Of a DNA stretch of 64,000 bases, positions 9,051 through 52,924 are shown one piece after another (within the stretch, counting starts at the first letter, position 1; every line of letters begins with the position of its first letter). The notes under the pieces were generated by a model. The model was not told the DNA's origin, made no database searches, and saw only the letters and a list, made by a program, of their open reading frames with translations. Both the position numbers and the translations under genes were made by a program. The stretch lies in contig JANQHT010000068.1 of NCBI GenBank assembly GCA_028282545.1, forward strand, positions 1-64,000, written 5' to 3'. The stretch comes from Spirochaetales bacterium (lineage in GTDB: Bacteria > Spirochaetota > Spirochaetia > DSM-27196 > Alkalispirochaetaceae).

Positions 9051-10091
9051 GTGAAATCATCAACGTACTTCGTGGATTCCATCCTGAGCCCGGTCAACGC
9101 CGGCGATGGGGGGCGGGCGGAACCGGCGCCCGTGGACGATACGGAGCTTCTCGACGCCTACTCCCGGGCGGTTACCACGGTGGTAGACAGGGTAGGGCCG
9201 TCGGTCGTTTCGATCGGTGTGAAGCGACCGGACCGCGCGCCGGACGCAGCCTATCACGGTGGCGACGAATCGGCTGCGGCCGGATCGGGTGTTATCGTCA
9301 CCCCCGACGGGTTCATCCTGACGAACGACCATGTGGTGAACGGCTTCTCCGACATCCGCGCCACCTTCACGGACGGACGATCAGCCGTGGCGGAAGTCAT
9401 CGGCCGCGACCCGGCAACCGACCTGGCACTTCTCAAGGTTCACAACGAGGTTCTTCCCGCCGCGGTGCTCGGTGACTCGGACCGGCTGCGTCCGGGGCAG
9501 CTCGTAATCGCCCTGGGAAACCCCTTCGGCTTCCAGAACACCGTTTCCGCCGGTATCGTGTCCGCCCTGGGGCGTTCCTTGCGAAGCGAGTCGGGACGTC
9601 TGATCGAAGGCATCGTTCAGAGTGACGTAGCGATGAATCCGGGCAACTCCGGGGGCCCCCTGCTGGACAGCGCCGGCCGCGTAGTAGGTATCAATACGGC
9701 GATCATCCGTTCCGGCCAGGGGATCAGTTTTTCCGTGCCCGTCAACACGGCCCGGTTCGTGATCAGCGAACTGGTCCGCCATCAAAAGGTACGACGGGCG
9801 AAACTCGGTATCGCAGCGAAGGTGAGGCCGGTCCCGCGCCGCTTCCAGCGAGCGATAGGCCACGACGCGCCAACGGTGGTGGAGATCGTCGATCTCGAGC
9901 GGGGCGGCCCCGCCGCCCGGGCGGGGTTGCAGAGCGGGGATTTCATCATCGCCGTTGATGACATCCACGTTTCGAATATGGACGACATTCACCGCGAATT
10001 GAGCGTTCACGAACCGGGCGCGGAGGTGCGTATTTCCTCGTGGCGGCGGGGCGGAGAGCGAATGGTCATCGTCGTCGCCGGGGAGGCGTAA
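9051..10091 (+). CDS. HtrA/Deg-type serine protease with one PDZ domain
   Basis: 346 aa from GTG 9051. The trypsin-like domain carries the triad His94 (TNDHVV), Asp124 (DPATDLALLK) and Ser200 (NPGNSGGPL), all in HtrA-type contexts. A single PDZ domain follows at about residues 255-345 (GGPAARAGLQSGDFIIAVDD). Family members degrade or refold damaged envelope proteins. Unlike typical HtrA, no signal peptide or membrane anchor is visible with this start, so it may be cytoplasmic or the start may be mis-set. No strong ribosome site was found. The SfsA-like gene follows immediately and may overlap. Confidence 0.9.
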   Translation: MKSSTYFVDSILSPVNAGDGGRAEPAPVDDTELLDAYSRAVTTVVDRVGPSVVSIGVKRPDRAPDAAYHGGDESAAAGSGVIVTPDGFILTNDHVVNGFSDIRATFTDGRSAVAEVIGRDPATDLALLKVHNEVLPAAVLGDSDRLRPGQLVIALGNPFGFQNTVSAGIVSALGRSLRSESGRLIEGIVQSDVAMNPGNSGGPLLDSAGRVVGINTAIIRSGQGISFSVPVNTARFVISELVRHQKVRRAKLGIAAKVRPVPRRFQRAIGHDAPTVVEIVDLERGGPAARAGLQSGDFIIAVDDIHVSNMDDIHRELSVHEPGAEVRISSWRRGGERMVIVVAGEA

Positions 10092-11320
10092 TCACCGCCG
10101 TCGGCCCGTTGACGACGGCCCTCTTCATTCATCGCCGGAACCGGTTCGTGGTTGAAGCGGAGATCGACGGAACGGCCACAACCGCCTCACTCCCGAACCC
10201 GGGCCGAATGCAGGAGATCCTGATTCCCGGTACCCGGTTACAGTGCCTCCCTGGTCCGGAAGGAGCAAAACACCCCTGGCGCGTTGTGGGCGTTCTCGAT
10301 CGTCCCACCCCCGGCTCGGCACTATACCTCGATACGGGCGGTACGAACCGTGTAGCGGCCCACGCAATCAACACGAAACAGATTCCGGCACTCGCCGACT
10401 ACGCTCTGGACCGTCGCGAGGTCCGCGTCCCCGGCACTCGCAGCCGTATCGACTTCCTGCTGCGCCACCGTACCAGCGGCGATCCCCTCTTCCTCGAAGT
10501 CAAGTCGTGCACGCTTTTTACCGGGCGATGGGCGATGTTTCCCGACGCGATAACGGAACGAGGGACCCGACACGTCCGCGAACTCGCCGAGCTTGCAGGC
10601 AGCGGGGCCACACGGTTCAGCGACGCACCACGGTCCATTGCCGCGGCGATCCTCGTGGTCGTCCATCACACCGGCCCCGATTGCTTCCTCCCCGACTACC
10701 ACGCGGATCTGGATTTTTCGCGAACCTTGTACGCGCTGCGCGACACCGTGCGGGTGATCGCATTCGGCGTGCGCTGGAACCAGGAGATGCAGCTTGACGG
10801 ATACCGCCCGGACATCACGGTCCCCTGGCGTGTTCTGCCCCCGCTTCTTGAGGACCGCGGTTCCTACCTCGTTCTCCTGCGTATGGACCGGGAGCGGACG
10901 CTCACCATAGGTGCGCTGGGAGACGTTCATTTTTTGCCGGGGTTCTACCTCTACGTGGGCTCGGCGATGCGGAATCTCTCCGCCCGCGTCGCCCGTCACC
11001 GACGCGACGGTCGGAAGCGGCCGCACTGGCATATCGACTACCTGCGCGAATCGACCACGTTTGTCGACAGCTACGCAATCAGGGAACCGTGGCGCCGGGA
11101 AACGGACATCGTCGCTACCCTGCGGCCCTTGGCCGCCGGCGACGTTCCCGGTTTCGGCGCGAGCGACTCACCGCTGCCCTCCCACCTTCTCTACTTTCGG
11201 AATGATCCACGCCCCACGGAGGCGTTCCAGAAGGAAATTCTCCGGCTCCGGCGGTACGGTCCCGACCGGCTCCTAAAAGAGCACAAACGCAGGGGGGAGA
11301 CGCCGTCGGATGATCCGTGA
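10040..11320 (+). CDS. SfsA family protein fused to a DUF123 (GIY-YIG-like) domain
   Basis: The first ~240 residues match SfsA: FIHRRNRFVVEAEIDG, SLPNPGRMQEILIPG, SRIDFLLRH, LFLEVKSCTL and MFPDAITERGTRHVREL. SfsA is a nuclease-like DNA-binding protein first linked to sugar fermentation. The last ~150 residues match DUF123: GFYLYVGSAMRNLSARVARH and PHWHIDYL. The start is unresolved. GTG 10040 lies inside the protease gene; an ATC at 10091 has a well-spaced GGGGAGG before it but would be a very rare start codon; TTG 10109 is a third choice. All give an intact SfsA core. It probably forms an operon with the protease. Confidence 0.88.
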   Translation: MAAGRRANGHRRRRGGVITAVGPLTTALFIHRRNRFVVEAEIDGTATTASLPNPGRMQEILIPGTRLQCLPGPEGAKHPWRVVGVLDRPTPGSALYLDTGGTNRVAAHAINTKQIPALADYALDRREVRVPGTRSRIDFLLRHRTSGDPLFLEVKSCTLFTGRWAMFPDAITERGTRHVRELAELAGSGATRFSDAPRSIAAAILVVVHHTGPDCFLPDYHADLDFSRTLYALRDTVRVIAFGVRWNQEMQLDGYRPDITVPWRVLPPLLEDRGSYLVLLRMDRERTLTIGALGDVHFLPGFYLYVGSAMRNLSARVARHRRDGRKRPHWHIDYLRESTTFVDSYAIREPWRRETDIVATLRPLAAGDVPGFGASDSPLPSHLLYFRNDPRPTEAFQKEILRLRRYGPDRLLKEHKRRGETPSDDP

Positions 11321-11327
11321 CAAACTG

Positions 11328-11780
11328 CTATCGGCAGGCGCCGCTGTAGCATTCGCAGAAGACCCGGTCCCAGCCGATGTCGTACCCTTGCCTCGTTTTG
11401 TCTGCTTCGCTTCCGAGCGCTTCCCACCCTGAATGGGTGAGTGTAACCGTACACCCCTCCGAGGAAGCGGCAAAGACCACTTCCACCACCTGTTCAGTTT
11501 CCGCCGACCTCCCCGGGTGCCAGGTGAAGCGGAGCAGCGACGGCGGCTCCCACGCGGTCACGCGACCCCAGTCGTGACGCGTACCGTCGTCCAGTACCTC
11601 GTAGACGTCTCCGCCCGCTCGACACTGGAGAACGCACCGAACCGACCTGGAACCGCCGATCGAGTGGGAGTCCAATGGCCACCACGTGTCTATGCCGTCG
11701 GTGAAGAGGGCGAACGCCCGCTCAGGCTCGAGGTCCACGGTGATCGTTTTTACGATCGGGTCAACTGTACCAACCGTCAT
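11328..11780 (-). CDS. SRPBCC/AHSA1-like ligand-binding domain protein
   Basis: 150 aa. It shows the START/SRPBCC pattern of AHSA1-like proteins: VDLEPERAFALFTDGIDTWW at the start, WGRVTAWEPPSLLRFTWHPG in the middle, and VEVVFAASSEGCTVTLTHSGWEALG near the end. These small helix-grip proteins bind hydrophobic ligands or act in stress responses. It starts 3 bp after the ArsR-type gene stop. ArsR-SRPBCC gene pairs are a widespread arrangement, so the regulator upstream probably controls it. Confidence 0.88.
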   Translation of the reverse strand: MTVGTVDPIVKTITVDLEPERAFALFTDGIDTWWPLDSHSIGGSRSVRCVLQCRAGGDVYEVLDDGTRHDWGRVTAWEPPSLLRFTWHPGRSAETEQVVEVVFAASSEGCTVTLTHSGWEALGSEADKTRQGYDIGWDRVFCECYSGACR

Positions 11781-11783
11781 CTC

Positions 11784-12107
11784 CTACTCCTTGTTGTCGG
11801 TTTCAGCCGCCCGGCCGGCAGCCGATTGGAACGCCCGCAGCGCGTCATCCCAGAAACCGTCGATGTACGCCCGCACCGCGATCAGCCCGGAAGGGTCGAT
11901 CGCATAACGCCGCCGGGCACCCTCGGCGGAACTCGCGACCAAGCCCGCCGCCTTCAGGACCGCCAGGTGTTGTGAGACGGCCGGTTGACTGATCGGCACG
12001 ATCCGACCGATTTCACCGACCGTGGCACTCCCGTTCCTGAGTAGTTCCATGATCTTCCGCCGCGTGGGATCCGCCAACGCCCGTAGTGACGTTTCATAAG
12101 TATCCAC
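11784..12107 (-). CDS. ArsR-family winged-helix repressor
   Basis: 107 aa from GTG 12107. The core is an ArsR-type wHTH: YETSLRALADPTRRKIMELL, then the recognition helix in ISQPAVSQHLAVLKAAGLV and the wing ARRRYAIDP. The metal-binding CVC motif of classical ArsR is absent, as is normal for members paired with SRPBCC genes. The start codon lies inside an inverted repeat, and the likely promoter places transcription at or one base before the GTG. This suggests a leaderless, self-repressed mRNA. It heads a two-gene operon with the SRPBCC gene. Confidence 0.9.
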   Translation of the reverse strand: MDTYETSLRALADPTRRKIMELLRNGSATVGEIGRIVPISQPAVSQHLAVLKAAGLVASSAEGARRRYAIDPSGLIAVRAYIDGFWDDALRAFQSAAGRAAETDNKE

Positions 12108-12130
12108 GAATATAAATGTATACTTATGAA
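12093..12130 (-). promoter_or_regulatory. Operator: 11-bp perfect inverted repeat over the ArsR promoter and start
   Basis: TTCATAAGTAT (12093-12103) and ATACTTATGAA (12120-12130) are exact reverse complements separated by 16 bp. One arm covers the ArsR start codon region and the other sits in the promoter spacer. This is the expected layout for autorepression by the ArsR-type protein encoded here. Confidence 0.75.
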
Positions 12131-12143
12131 TAAATCTCGTCAA
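12115..12143 (-). promoter_or_regulatory. Promoter of the ArsR-SRPBCC pair
   Basis: Minus strand TTGACG, 17 bp, TACATT. The predicted transcription start falls at about 12108, directly at the GTG codon. The same two hexamers with the same spacing occur before the second ArsR operon at 20086-20114. Confidence 0.6.
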
Positions 12144-12232
12144 CCGGCATCCAAAGAAATTGCTCATCGTTGTCTGACGGTAATCTCACATGTGCTCCGT
12201 ACGTTCGCTGCAAACGTTTCGAGGAGGATTCA

Positions 12233-13813
12233 ATGAAACAGGGAACCATCACGTTGTTGCTGATTGCCGTTGCCCTCGGCGCCGGTGCGGCCGGGTTGAC
12301 GGAAACGACGGCGACAATCGTCGACAGCGAGAAGATCGGCACCTTCGACTCCGGTATGGGAGAAGGGGCCGGCGAAATAGTCGTGTTTGACCCCGACTCC
12401 ATACAGCTTCTGGTGGTAAACGCCGCCCAAACGTCCGTCGACGTTGTGGACATTGTCGATCCCGCATCGCCGCGGCTGGTACGACGCATCGACGTGGCGC
12501 GCTACGGCGCGTCCGCCAACAGCGTTGCCGTGCATGACGGCGTCGTGGCCGTCGCGGTGGAGGCGGAGATTCACACCAATCCCGGGTCGGTCGTGTTTTT
12601 CACCACCGGCGGCCGGTACATCAACGAGGTTCGCGTTGGTGCGTTGCCGGACATGGTTACCTTCACACCGGACGGGCGGTACGTGCTGGTCGCCAACGAA
12701 GGTGAACCGAACGACGATTATACGATAGACCCGGAAGGCTCCGTTTCCGTGATCGACATTCGCGGCGGTGTGGAGTCGGCCACGGTGCGTTTTGCAGACG
12801 TCTCGCGAATCACCGTTGACGCAGCGGCGTTTGCCGCCGCCGGCGGCCGCGTCTATGGACCCGGTGCTTCTCCGCTCCAAGACGCTGAGCCGGAGTACAT
12901 CACCGTCTCCGACGACTCGCGCACCGCCTGGGTCGGATTGCAGGAGAACAACACGGTCGTCGAAATCGATGTCCGTTCCGCTCGGGTGACCGCCGTATAC
13001 CCCCTTGGGTACAAGGATCACACCCGGCCGGAGAACGCCTTCGACGCGAGTAACCGGGACGGACGCATCAATATCACCACCCATCCCACCTGGGGCCTCT
13101 ACCAGCCGGACGCGATCGACTCCTTTTCGTGGGCGGGCCGGACCTACCTGGTCACGGCGAACGAAGGCGACGCCCGGGACTACGACGGTTTCAGCGAAGA
13201 AGCGCGTGTGGCAGACCTCGTGCTCGATCCGGTAGCGTATCCGAACGCCGCGGAGCTGCAGGAGGACGCCAACCTGGGGCGGCTCAAGACGACAACGGTT
13301 GGCGGCGACTTCGACGGCGACGGAGATGTTGACCAGATTCTCTCTTACGGCGCGCGTTCCATCACCGTGTGGACTCCCGTGCGTGGCACCCTCCGCCGGG
13401 TTGGCGATACGGGCGCCCAGATCGAGACACGCCTCGCCCGTTTGACACCGGAGGGTTTCAACGCAAACGACGGGATCATCGACGAGTTCGATGAACGCAG
13501 CGACGACAAGGGCCCGGAGCCGGAAGGTGTTGTCGTGGGAATGATCGCGGGTCGTCCCTACGCTTTTGTGGGACTGGAGCGCGCCCTGGGCGGAGTAATG
13601 GTCTTCGACCTCTCCATTCCCGGTCAGCCGGAATACGTCACGTACATCCTGTCCAACGATGGAACGGGCGCCGCCGGAAACGACGTATCTCCGGAGGGAC
13701 TTGCCTTTATACCCGCCGCCCAGAGCCCTACCGGCTCGCCGCTGCTCGTTGCGTCCTACGAGGTATCCGGGACGGTGGCGATCTACGATCTGCACGTTTC
13801 GCCCCGCCGTTAA
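12233..13813 (+). CDS. Exported choice-of-anchor I domain protein (beta-propeller-like)
   Basis: 526 aa. ATG 12233 has a strong GAGGAGG ribosome site. A signal peptide covers about residues 1-20 (ITLLLIAVALGAGAAG). The body shows repeated propeller-like strands with signatures of the choice-of-anchor I family: PDMVTFTPDGRYVLVANEGE, PEYITVSDDSRTAWVGLQEN, FSWAGRTYLVTANEGDARDY and PEGVVVGMIAGRPYAFVGLE. No C-terminal anchor is seen after the propeller; the protein ends soon after the last blade, so it is probably periplasmic or surface-associated. Some relatives are called alkaline phosphatase-like, but no catalytic motif supports that here. Confidence 0.85.
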   Translation: MKQGTITLLLIAVALGAGAAGLTETTATIVDSEKIGTFDSGMGEGAGEIVVFDPDSIQLLVVNAAQTSVDVVDIVDPASPRLVRRIDVARYGASANSVAVHDGVVAVAVEAEIHTNPGSVVFFTTGGRYINEVRVGALPDMVTFTPDGRYVLVANEGEPNDDYTIDPEGSVSVIDIRGGVESATVRFADVSRITVDAAAFAAAGGRVYGPGASPLQDAEPEYITVSDDSRTAWVGLQENNTVVEIDVRSARVTAVYPLGYKDHTRPENAFDASNRDGRINITTHPTWGLYQPDAIDSFSWAGRTYLVTANEGDARDYDGFSEEARVADLVLDPVAYPNAAELQEDANLGRLKTTTVGGDFDGDGDVDQILSYGARSITVWTPVRGTLRRVGDTGAQIETRLARLTPEGFNANDGIIDEFDERSDDKGPEPEGVVVGMIAGRPYAFVGLERALGGVMVFDLSIPGQPEYVTYILSNDGTGAAGNDVSPEGLAFIPAAQSPTGSPLLVASYEVSGTVAIYDLHVSPRR

Positions 13814-42264: not shown

Positions 42265-42310
42265 GTAGTTCCCACCACCATCGGACTTCGGTGTCGATCG
42301 CGTAGACCGT

Positions 42311-42341
42311 GCTCCAATCCCCATGCGGCGGGGATTGGAGC
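42311..42341 (-). terminator. Hairpin between binding-protein and permease genes
   Basis: GCTCCAATCCCC (42311-42322) and GGGGATTGGAGC (42330-42341) are perfect complements with a 7-nt loop. Without a U-run it probably stabilises the binding-protein mRNA and lowers permease expression, as known for maltose- and histidine-type operons. Confidence 0.6.
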
Positions 42342-42368
42342 AATAATCATCGGCCGATATTCTACCAA

Positions 42369-52894: not shown

Positions 52895-52924
52895 AAAAAT
52901 ACTATACATATGTATAGTATTTTT
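52895..52924. promoter_or_regulatory. 30-bp perfect palindrome before the radical SAM gene
   Basis: The 15-bp half site ATGTATAGTATTTTT (52910-52924) is matched exactly by its complement at 52895-52909. The palindrome ends one base before the ATG and covers the -10 and spacer of the likely promoter. The centre ACTATACATATGTATAGT resembles LexA-type boxes in layout, though not in exact sequence. Confidence 0.75.

Follow-up and report, generated by a model that had tools for sequence, protein, structure and literature searches.

The arsR gene of the Spirochaetales contig JANQHT010000068.1 poses a compact question. An inverted repeat covers both its promoter and its first codons, and the gene appears to begin with a GTG just past the -10 hexamer. 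Is the repeat an operator for the ArsR protein itself, and is the GTG also the 5' end of the mRNA? We analyzed the 64,000-nucleotide stretch of DNA that contains the locus, referred to below as the window. The repeat, the promoter, arsR, and the SRPBCC-domain gene that follows it are all on the minus strand (Table 1). We consider it highly likely that the locus is an autorepressed leaderless operon of the type of Rv2034 of Mycobacterium tuberculosis, with arsR followed by the SRPBCC-domain gene and with two abutting operator sites. The predicted promoter and sites, the gene order, the lack of a Shine-Dalgarno sequence, and the conservation can be read from the DNA.

Table 1. Features of the arsR locus, in window positions; L004 is the nearest relative from the same order among the matches listed
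Feature	Positions	Strand	Basis or remarks
-35 hexamer TTGACG	12138..12143	-	Promoter scan; TTGACA at the same place in L004
-10 hexamer TACATT, 17 nt from the -35	12115..12120	-	Promoter scan; TACACT in L004
Operator site 1 (predicted), ATAAGT-ATAC-ATTTAT	12112..12127	-	Promoter spacer through -10 into discriminator
Operator site 2 (predicted), ATTCGT-GGAT-ACTTAT	12096..12111	-	Start codon and codons 2 to 4; dyad inside codon 2
Arm 2 of the repeat, outer half of site 1	12120..12130	.	Spacer of the promoter, with the first -10 base
Arm 1 of the repeat, outer half of site 2	12093..12103	.	Within coding sequence, codons 2 to 5 (from second base of codon 2)
GTG start codon, probably 5' end of leaderless mRNA	12105..12107	-	Promoter spacing, relatives
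Upstream in-frame ATG (127-aa reading), considered not to be the start	12165..12167	-	No counterpart in L004
arsR, 107 aa, HTH_5 / metalloregulator ArsR-SmtB family	11784..12107	-	Profile search
AAGGAGTAGGAG, Shine-Dalgarno of SRPBCC gene	11781..11792	-	Sequence inspection
SRPBCC / AHSA1-domain gene, second gene of the operon	11328..11780	-	AHSA1, E 2.6e-10

The two arms, TTCATAAGTAT (arm 1) and ATACTTATGAA (arm 2), are exact and form the perfect 11-bp inverted repeat of the original prediction, with 16 nt between them; the repeat-finding tool gave a longer version, 14 nt at 93%. In dinucleotide shuffles of positions 12050-12233, a perfect repeat of 11 bp and a loop of up to 30 nt occurred in 6 of 5,000, and in shuffles of positions 12080-12150 in 3 of 5,000. 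Across the window, such perfect 11-bp repeats took up 20 arm positions in 8 clusters, compared with 0 to 5 positions in each of ten shuffled windows. The two copies of the arm TTCATAAGTAT at the arsR locus are the only ones in the 4.28-Mb assembly, which is 86% complete. The promoter TTGACG-17-TACATT was likewise found where it had been placed and is the sole sigma-70-like match in positions 11700-12700. Its score of 9 of 12 is not significant alone, since shuffles gave a mean of 0.4 matches at that score. The placement of the arms held for one of them: the promoter-spacer arm is where it was said to be, with the first base of the -10 included, but the arm assigned to the start codon covers codons 2 to 5 and not the GTG.

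We then considered the start of the gene. Seven nucleotides separate the -10 hexamer from the GTG, and the promoter spacing predicts a transcript start at 12107, the G of the GTG, within 2 nt on either side. The predicted absence of a ribosome-binding site was borne out, as the longest match to TAAGGAGGTGA between -18 and -4 of arsR was 3 nt. The SRPBCC gene, which begins 3 nt past the arsR stop codon (the stop ends at 11784), has the Shine-Dalgarno sequence AAGGAGTAGGAG, whereas the arsR start has none. A promoter ending 5 to 8 nt before an ATG or GTG that opens at least 90 codons was found at three places in the 64 kb (12107, 39082, and 52894), and the same scan on the window read backwards found none. 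A second -10-like hexamer, TATATT (12114-12109), would begin the RNA inside codon 2; no -35 was seen 16 to 18 nt from it. GTG may be a weak start for a leaderless mRNA. The 171 leaderless starts listed for S. meliloti are all AUG, partly by that paper's definition (PMC3616915), and changing the ATG of acuR to GTG is reported to have much reduced, but not abolished, expression (PMC3017554). Of 18 Spirochaetes genomes, 6 are reported to have leaderless genes, at an average of 3.9% (PMC3160421).

The predicted operator has two parts. Site 1 differs at one position from ATAAGTN4ACTTAT, is the best match to it in the assembly, and ends 4 nt before the GTG; it gives the window an RTAAGT-N4-ACTTAY palindrome close upstream of the start. 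Site 2 has two mismatches, with a good half, ACTTAT, in codons 3 and 4 and a poor other half. Its pairing is 4 of 7, and the center in codon 2 ties with a center on the start codon. The locus thus probably has two 16-bp dimer sites end to end, whose outer halves form the 11-bp repeat, and not one operator for one dimer. A search of the assembly for ATAAGTN4ACTTAT with up to 2 mismatches returned 17 places, compared with 33 for the reversed control, and so gave no evidence of targets beyond the two sites at arsR.

To compare the locus with its relatives, we sampled 82 loci (L003, L004, and L033 to L112, the last being the best 80 of a longer list); L005 to L032, 36 to 48% identical, were left out of the sample. 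L061 was dropped for want of a usable arsR 5' end and L076 for want of a start by the rule, and starts were set by hand for L003, L033, L039, L040, L064, L068, L080, and L106. The remaining 80 loci were divided by eye, from operator and N terminus, into group A (26 loci) and group B (54 loci). Among the matches listed, group A comprises the window, L004, Alphaproteobacteria, actinomycetes, Acidimicrobiia, Gemmatimonadetes, a Chloroflexi metagenome-assembled genome (MAG), and a MAG labelled Euryarchaeota. Ten plasmid loci were also chosen by hand among 60 matches listed (198 records); L123 and L130, which have no start codon at the expected place, were excluded from the dyad test, leaving eight.

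L004, whose ArsR is 65 to 67% identical to that of the window, has the promoter TTGACA-17-TACACT, a perfect site 1 (ATAAGTATACACTTAT), TTCGTG with a GTG start, and ACTTAT in codons 3 and 4. Before the start, 28 of 38 bases agree between the window and L004, while further upstream 67 of 300 agree, which is chance level. In group A as a whole, the position of site 1 recurs, and the region from -50 to +12 holds 72 copies of TAAG or CTTA, compared with 1.1 expected from other segments of the same loci; every one of the 26 loci has at least two. Among the matches listed, the SRPBCC gene directly follows arsR in 25 of the 26 loci, the longest Shine-Dalgarno matches before the starts are 0 to 4 nt, and four starts, including that of the window, are GTG.

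A dyad whose axis falls just after the first base of the start codon gave a mean pairing of 0.68 in the 26 group A loci, compared with a background of 0.28 (z 11.8), and the same center gave z 4.8 in the eight plasmid loci. This center was the sole best of eight tested in 20 of the 26 loci and was tied in 4. Pairing reached 6 or 7 of 7 in 10 of the 26 and at least 5 in 14, while 2.2% of control places reached 6 or 7 of 7 at the best of the eight centers. The clearest example is ATAAGTC-ATG-ACTTAT (L033). No convincing site 2 was seen in L036, L040, and L050 of group A or in the plasmid loci L129 and L131.

To ask whether the coding half is an operator, we compared codon choice there with the rest of the gene. 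Threonine at codons 2 and 3 of group A is encoded by ACT in 15 of 15 cases, compared with 3 of 111 threonines after codon 6 of those genes, and tyrosine at codons 2 to 4 by TAT in 16 of 18, compared with 14 of 41. Both tests, of codons and of pairing, were repeated with loci less than 80% identical: 29 of the 34 for codons and, leaving aside L003, L004, and L126, 26 for pairing. In the 29 distinct loci, threonine is ACT in 17 of 19 cases at codons 2 to 4, in 2 of 7 at codons 5 to 13, and in 7 of 127 later; tyrosine is TAT in 17 of 18, compared with 19 of 53 elsewhere. As a control, codons 2 to 4 of the SRPBCC genes at 22 group A loci gave ACT in 1 of 19 cases. The two halves of site 2 also covary: 109 of 156 pairs matched within the 26 distinct loci, compared with a mean of 89.7 (standard deviation 4.4) when the halves were re-dealt, and none of 5,000 re-dealings reached 109. 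Paired halves are seen, for example, in GTTAGCCACGGCTTAC and GTAAGCC-ATG-GCTAAC of Methylobacterium (L125), and in GTTAGTGG|CCACTAAC over the GTG of Mesorhizobium (L126). All these statistics on the relatives, the dyad pairing included, are strong but not exact, because kinship among the loci inflates them and group A was picked by eye.

From these sequence comparisons, the coding half of the dyad appears to fix the codons ACT TAT. We lean, by a modest margin, toward a family-wide arrangement in which an operator dyad lies in or next to a leaderless start codon, so that the same bases would double as half-site, transcript start, start codon, and codons 2 to 4, and the recurrent N-terminal M-(T/A)-Y would have been imprinted by the DNA site and not required by the protein. 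This placement of the dyad seems to span several phyla and one metagenome bin labelled archaeal. In that bin, L049 (MAG labelled Euryarchaeota RBG_16_67_27), the same operator layout lies over a GTG start, and TATAAATA, which is TATA-box-like, lies at -30 to -23, as expected of an archaeal leaderless promoter. The putative operator of L049 is thus at the usual distance from the start codon, although the promoter is TATA-like. A family-wide start-codon operator dyad with an N-terminal imprint was not found in print among the open-licence papers listed, and a search of that literature for the half-site string gave nothing relevant among the papers listed.

The ArsR protein of the window exceeds the cut-offs of PF01022 (E 1.1e-16; Pfam) and NF033788 (E 4.2e-24; NCBIfam). 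The SdpR family autorepressor profile (NF033789) was rejected, with 66.4 bits against a curated cut-off of 100. A metal- or thiol-sensing site of Cys/His ligands was not found in the protein, which has no cysteine and one histidine in its 107 residues; among the matches listed, 22 of the 26 group A proteins are free of cysteine. A Cys/His sensor site is not universal among ArsR-family members. The protein is therefore an ArsR/SmtB member by fold but not evidently a metal sensor. The ligand that would release it is probably not a metal.

The closest studied relative that we found is Rv2034. We take the polyketide_cyc2 domain of Rv2035 to belong to the SRPBCC superfamily. We also take the window ArsR to be 51% identical to Rv2034 over 96 aa; the Rv2034 sequence used is consistent with PMC3338718 in A32, in E35, and in having C61 as its sole cysteine. 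According to that report, Rv2034 represses itself, is a dimer, and is not relieved of repression by any of seven metals; Rv2034 to Rv2036 are taken as one operon, in which Rv2035 has the polyketide_cyc2 domain (PMC3338718). DNase I protection is reported from -30 to +3 on the coding strand and from -26 to +8 on the other, a length that fits the GTG as +1 to +3, and the bound element is 20 bp long, with 4 bp as the spacer between its halves, one of which is enough in vitro (PMC3338718). The Rv2034 mRNA is listed in category L, leaderless (PMC3898074, Table 2).

The reported Rv2034 motif is CCGTAAGT-N4-ACTTACGG followed by TTCGTG (PMC3338718), and the layout of site 1 matches this footprint motif, GTAAGTCTAAACTTAC. 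Rv2034 thus reads GTAAGT-N4-ACTTAC and then GGTTCGTG, where the window reads ATAAGT-N4-ATTTAT and then ATTCGTG; the half-site differs, being GTAAGT in Rv2034 and ATAAGT in the window. Two further differences concern the protein and its reach. C61 is reported to be needed for dimer formation and binding, whereas the window ArsR has no cysteine, and dosR, phoP, and groEL2 are reported as further targets of Rv2034, whereas the 86%-complete assembly shows no second strong site. The footprint over the start, autorepression, and the leaderless category are experimental results for Rv2034 only; for the window we infer binding, transcript start, and ligand. The layout was thus already known piecewise from Rv2034, and the window adds a case of that kind. 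The relatives, the layout of L004, and the published Rv2034 work together lend support to the predicted operator identity, autorepression, and leaderless start.

Lambda cI and Tn1721 tetR are autoregulated, with repressors and operator positions unrelated to those of the window. Both are cited as leaderless repressor mRNAs in the discussion of PMC3017554. The acuR-acuI-dddL operon of Rhodobacter sphaeroides, described in the same paper, is leaderless with the repressor gene first. Its inverted repeat, like that of arsR, overlaps the promoter. Its repressor is translated less than the later genes (PMC3017554). However, AcuR belongs to the TetR family and responds to acrylate, and the paper describes the repeat as lying on the promoter, not as crossing the ATG (PMC3017554).

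In the mechanism that we propose, RNA polymerase would use TTGACG-17-TACATT and initiate at the GTG or within about 2 nt of it, and the mRNA would therefore have no leader. arsR would be translated as a leaderless message and the SRPBCC gene through its own Shine-Dalgarno sequence. ArsR dimers would occupy the two abutting 16-bp sites, one from the spacer to the discriminator and the other over the start codon and codons 2 to 4, and bound ArsR would exclude polymerase. A ligand would release ArsR, and both proteins would then be made. The original prediction had proposed that the repressor might block both polymerase binding and the start of translation-ready mRNA. A block of transcription by DNA-bound repressor is consistent with the layout, but we saw nothing to suggest that translation is blocked separately: over its first 80 nt, the predicted mRNA folds less well than its shuffles do (z +1.86).

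The prediction had also implied a single operator, in which one ArsR dimer, or two, would read the 11-bp arms as a long palindrome centered at 12111.5. The arms are indeed perfect at the window, and site 2 by itself is weak. However, the arm centers are 27 bp apart, a spacing unsuited to one winged-helix dimer, many relatives carry two 16-bp palindromes spaced 16 to 17 bp apart, and the reported Rv2034 element, with its 4-bp spacer and sufficient half, is 20 bp long. We consider a single operator unlikely and replace it with two adjacent 16-bp sites, as in many of the relatives. A longer gene is quite improbable. It would start at the ATG at 12167 (127 aa), with a promoter further upstream and with the repeat inside the coding sequence, and the frame is open from 12167. 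Against it, the 20 nt before that ATG hold no ribosome-binding site (match of 3 nt or less), and L004 lacks an ATG in its upstream open frame and is unrelated to the window beyond the -35. Among the matches listed, the only start candidate of most group A relatives sits at the operator, and the annotated plasmid relatives L124, L125, L126, and L129 begin at or right after it. The 20 added residues would also come largely from promoter and operator DNA.

The repeat lies within a 125-bp intergenic region shared with a divergent choice-of-anchor I gene (start 12233), and it could mainly serve that gene or another regulator. We regard this as very improbable: more than 100 bp separate the repeat from the start of the divergent gene, the motif recurs before relatives of the window ArsR in several phyla, and L004 keeps the sites although tblastn (E 1 or better) finds no such neighbor in the 1.5 kb upstream of it. 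That the repeat arose by chance in an AT-rich patch might be argued from the eight clusters of such repeats in the window and from the promoter score, but the shuffles (6 of 5,000), together with the conservation, the codon imprint, and the covariation, leave this with a negligible probability.

The preferred reading, an Rv2034-type leaderless operon with two operator sites, unites three separate published facts on Rv2034 (the footprint over the start, autorepression, and the leaderless mRNA) into one architecture, which would recur far outside mycobacteria. It also suggests a simple rule for the true starts of such genes, which are open to misplacement by gene callers (at the window, a form of 127 aa is possible), and it offers a clean case in which a DNA regulatory site appears to fix N-terminal codons and residues of a protein.

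Group B, mostly actinobacterial ArsR-SRPBCC operons of the MHAFDVLGDPVRRR type, resembles the window in combining ArsR with an AHSA1-domain gene, in its ACTTATATAAG half-sites, and in the short distance from promoter to start. It differs in where the half-sites are: they cover the -35, with most TAAG copies from -24 to -29 and most CTTA copies from -30 to -34, and are almost absent near the start codon. A tblastn search with group A proteins matched an SRPBCC gene at 1 of the 54 group B loci, but the absence that this suggested was rejected, as all 7 loci scanned of the 54 have an AHSA1 neighbor. Peaks of palindromicity within the group B coding sequence were ascribed to shared coding sequence and not to operators.

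Among the plasmids, L126 (Mesorhizobium ciceri pMESCI01, near 1974) has a long perfect palindrome, GTTCGCGTTAGTGG|CCACTAACGCGAAC, centered in codon 2 of an annotated GTG start; its ArsR-SRPBCC operon has the layout of the window with another operator sequence. The Rhodococcus plasmids L123 and L130 carry ArsR-SRPBCC operons with the operator in place and GTA at the expected start codon, and their arsR gene is absent from the PLSDB table, which is itself incomplete. Relatives were also sought in viral contigs, and none was confirmed.

Elsewhere in the window, a perfect 30-bp palindrome, AAAAATACTATACATATGTATAGTATTTTT, at 52895-52924 (-) takes up the promoter TTGCAA-17-TATAGT. The -10 of that promoter ends 6 nt short of the ATG of gene 52894-50669 (-), whose product, of 741 aa, fuses TIGR03916 (radical SAM DNA modification/repair) with TIGR03915. 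This is probably a second leaderless gene whose promoter contains an operator. The palindrome resembles what we take to be an SOS box. Its core, TATACATATGTATA, is shared by G000:C74:39647, and sites with 2 to 3 mismatches elsewhere in the assembly numbered 23, compared with 49 for the reversed control, so that taken together they do not exceed chance. A third leaderless-type start belongs to 39082-38021 (-), with TTGACA-16-TATCAT, 8 nt, and an ATG; its 353-aa protein has no Pfam match. The gene at 10040-11320 (+) encodes an SfsA nuclease that carries a DUF123 domain as a C-terminal fusion. Finally, a hairpin, TGCTCCAATCCCC/GGGGATTGGAGCA, with a loop of about 6 nt lies at 42310-42342 and is possibly a terminator or attenuator.
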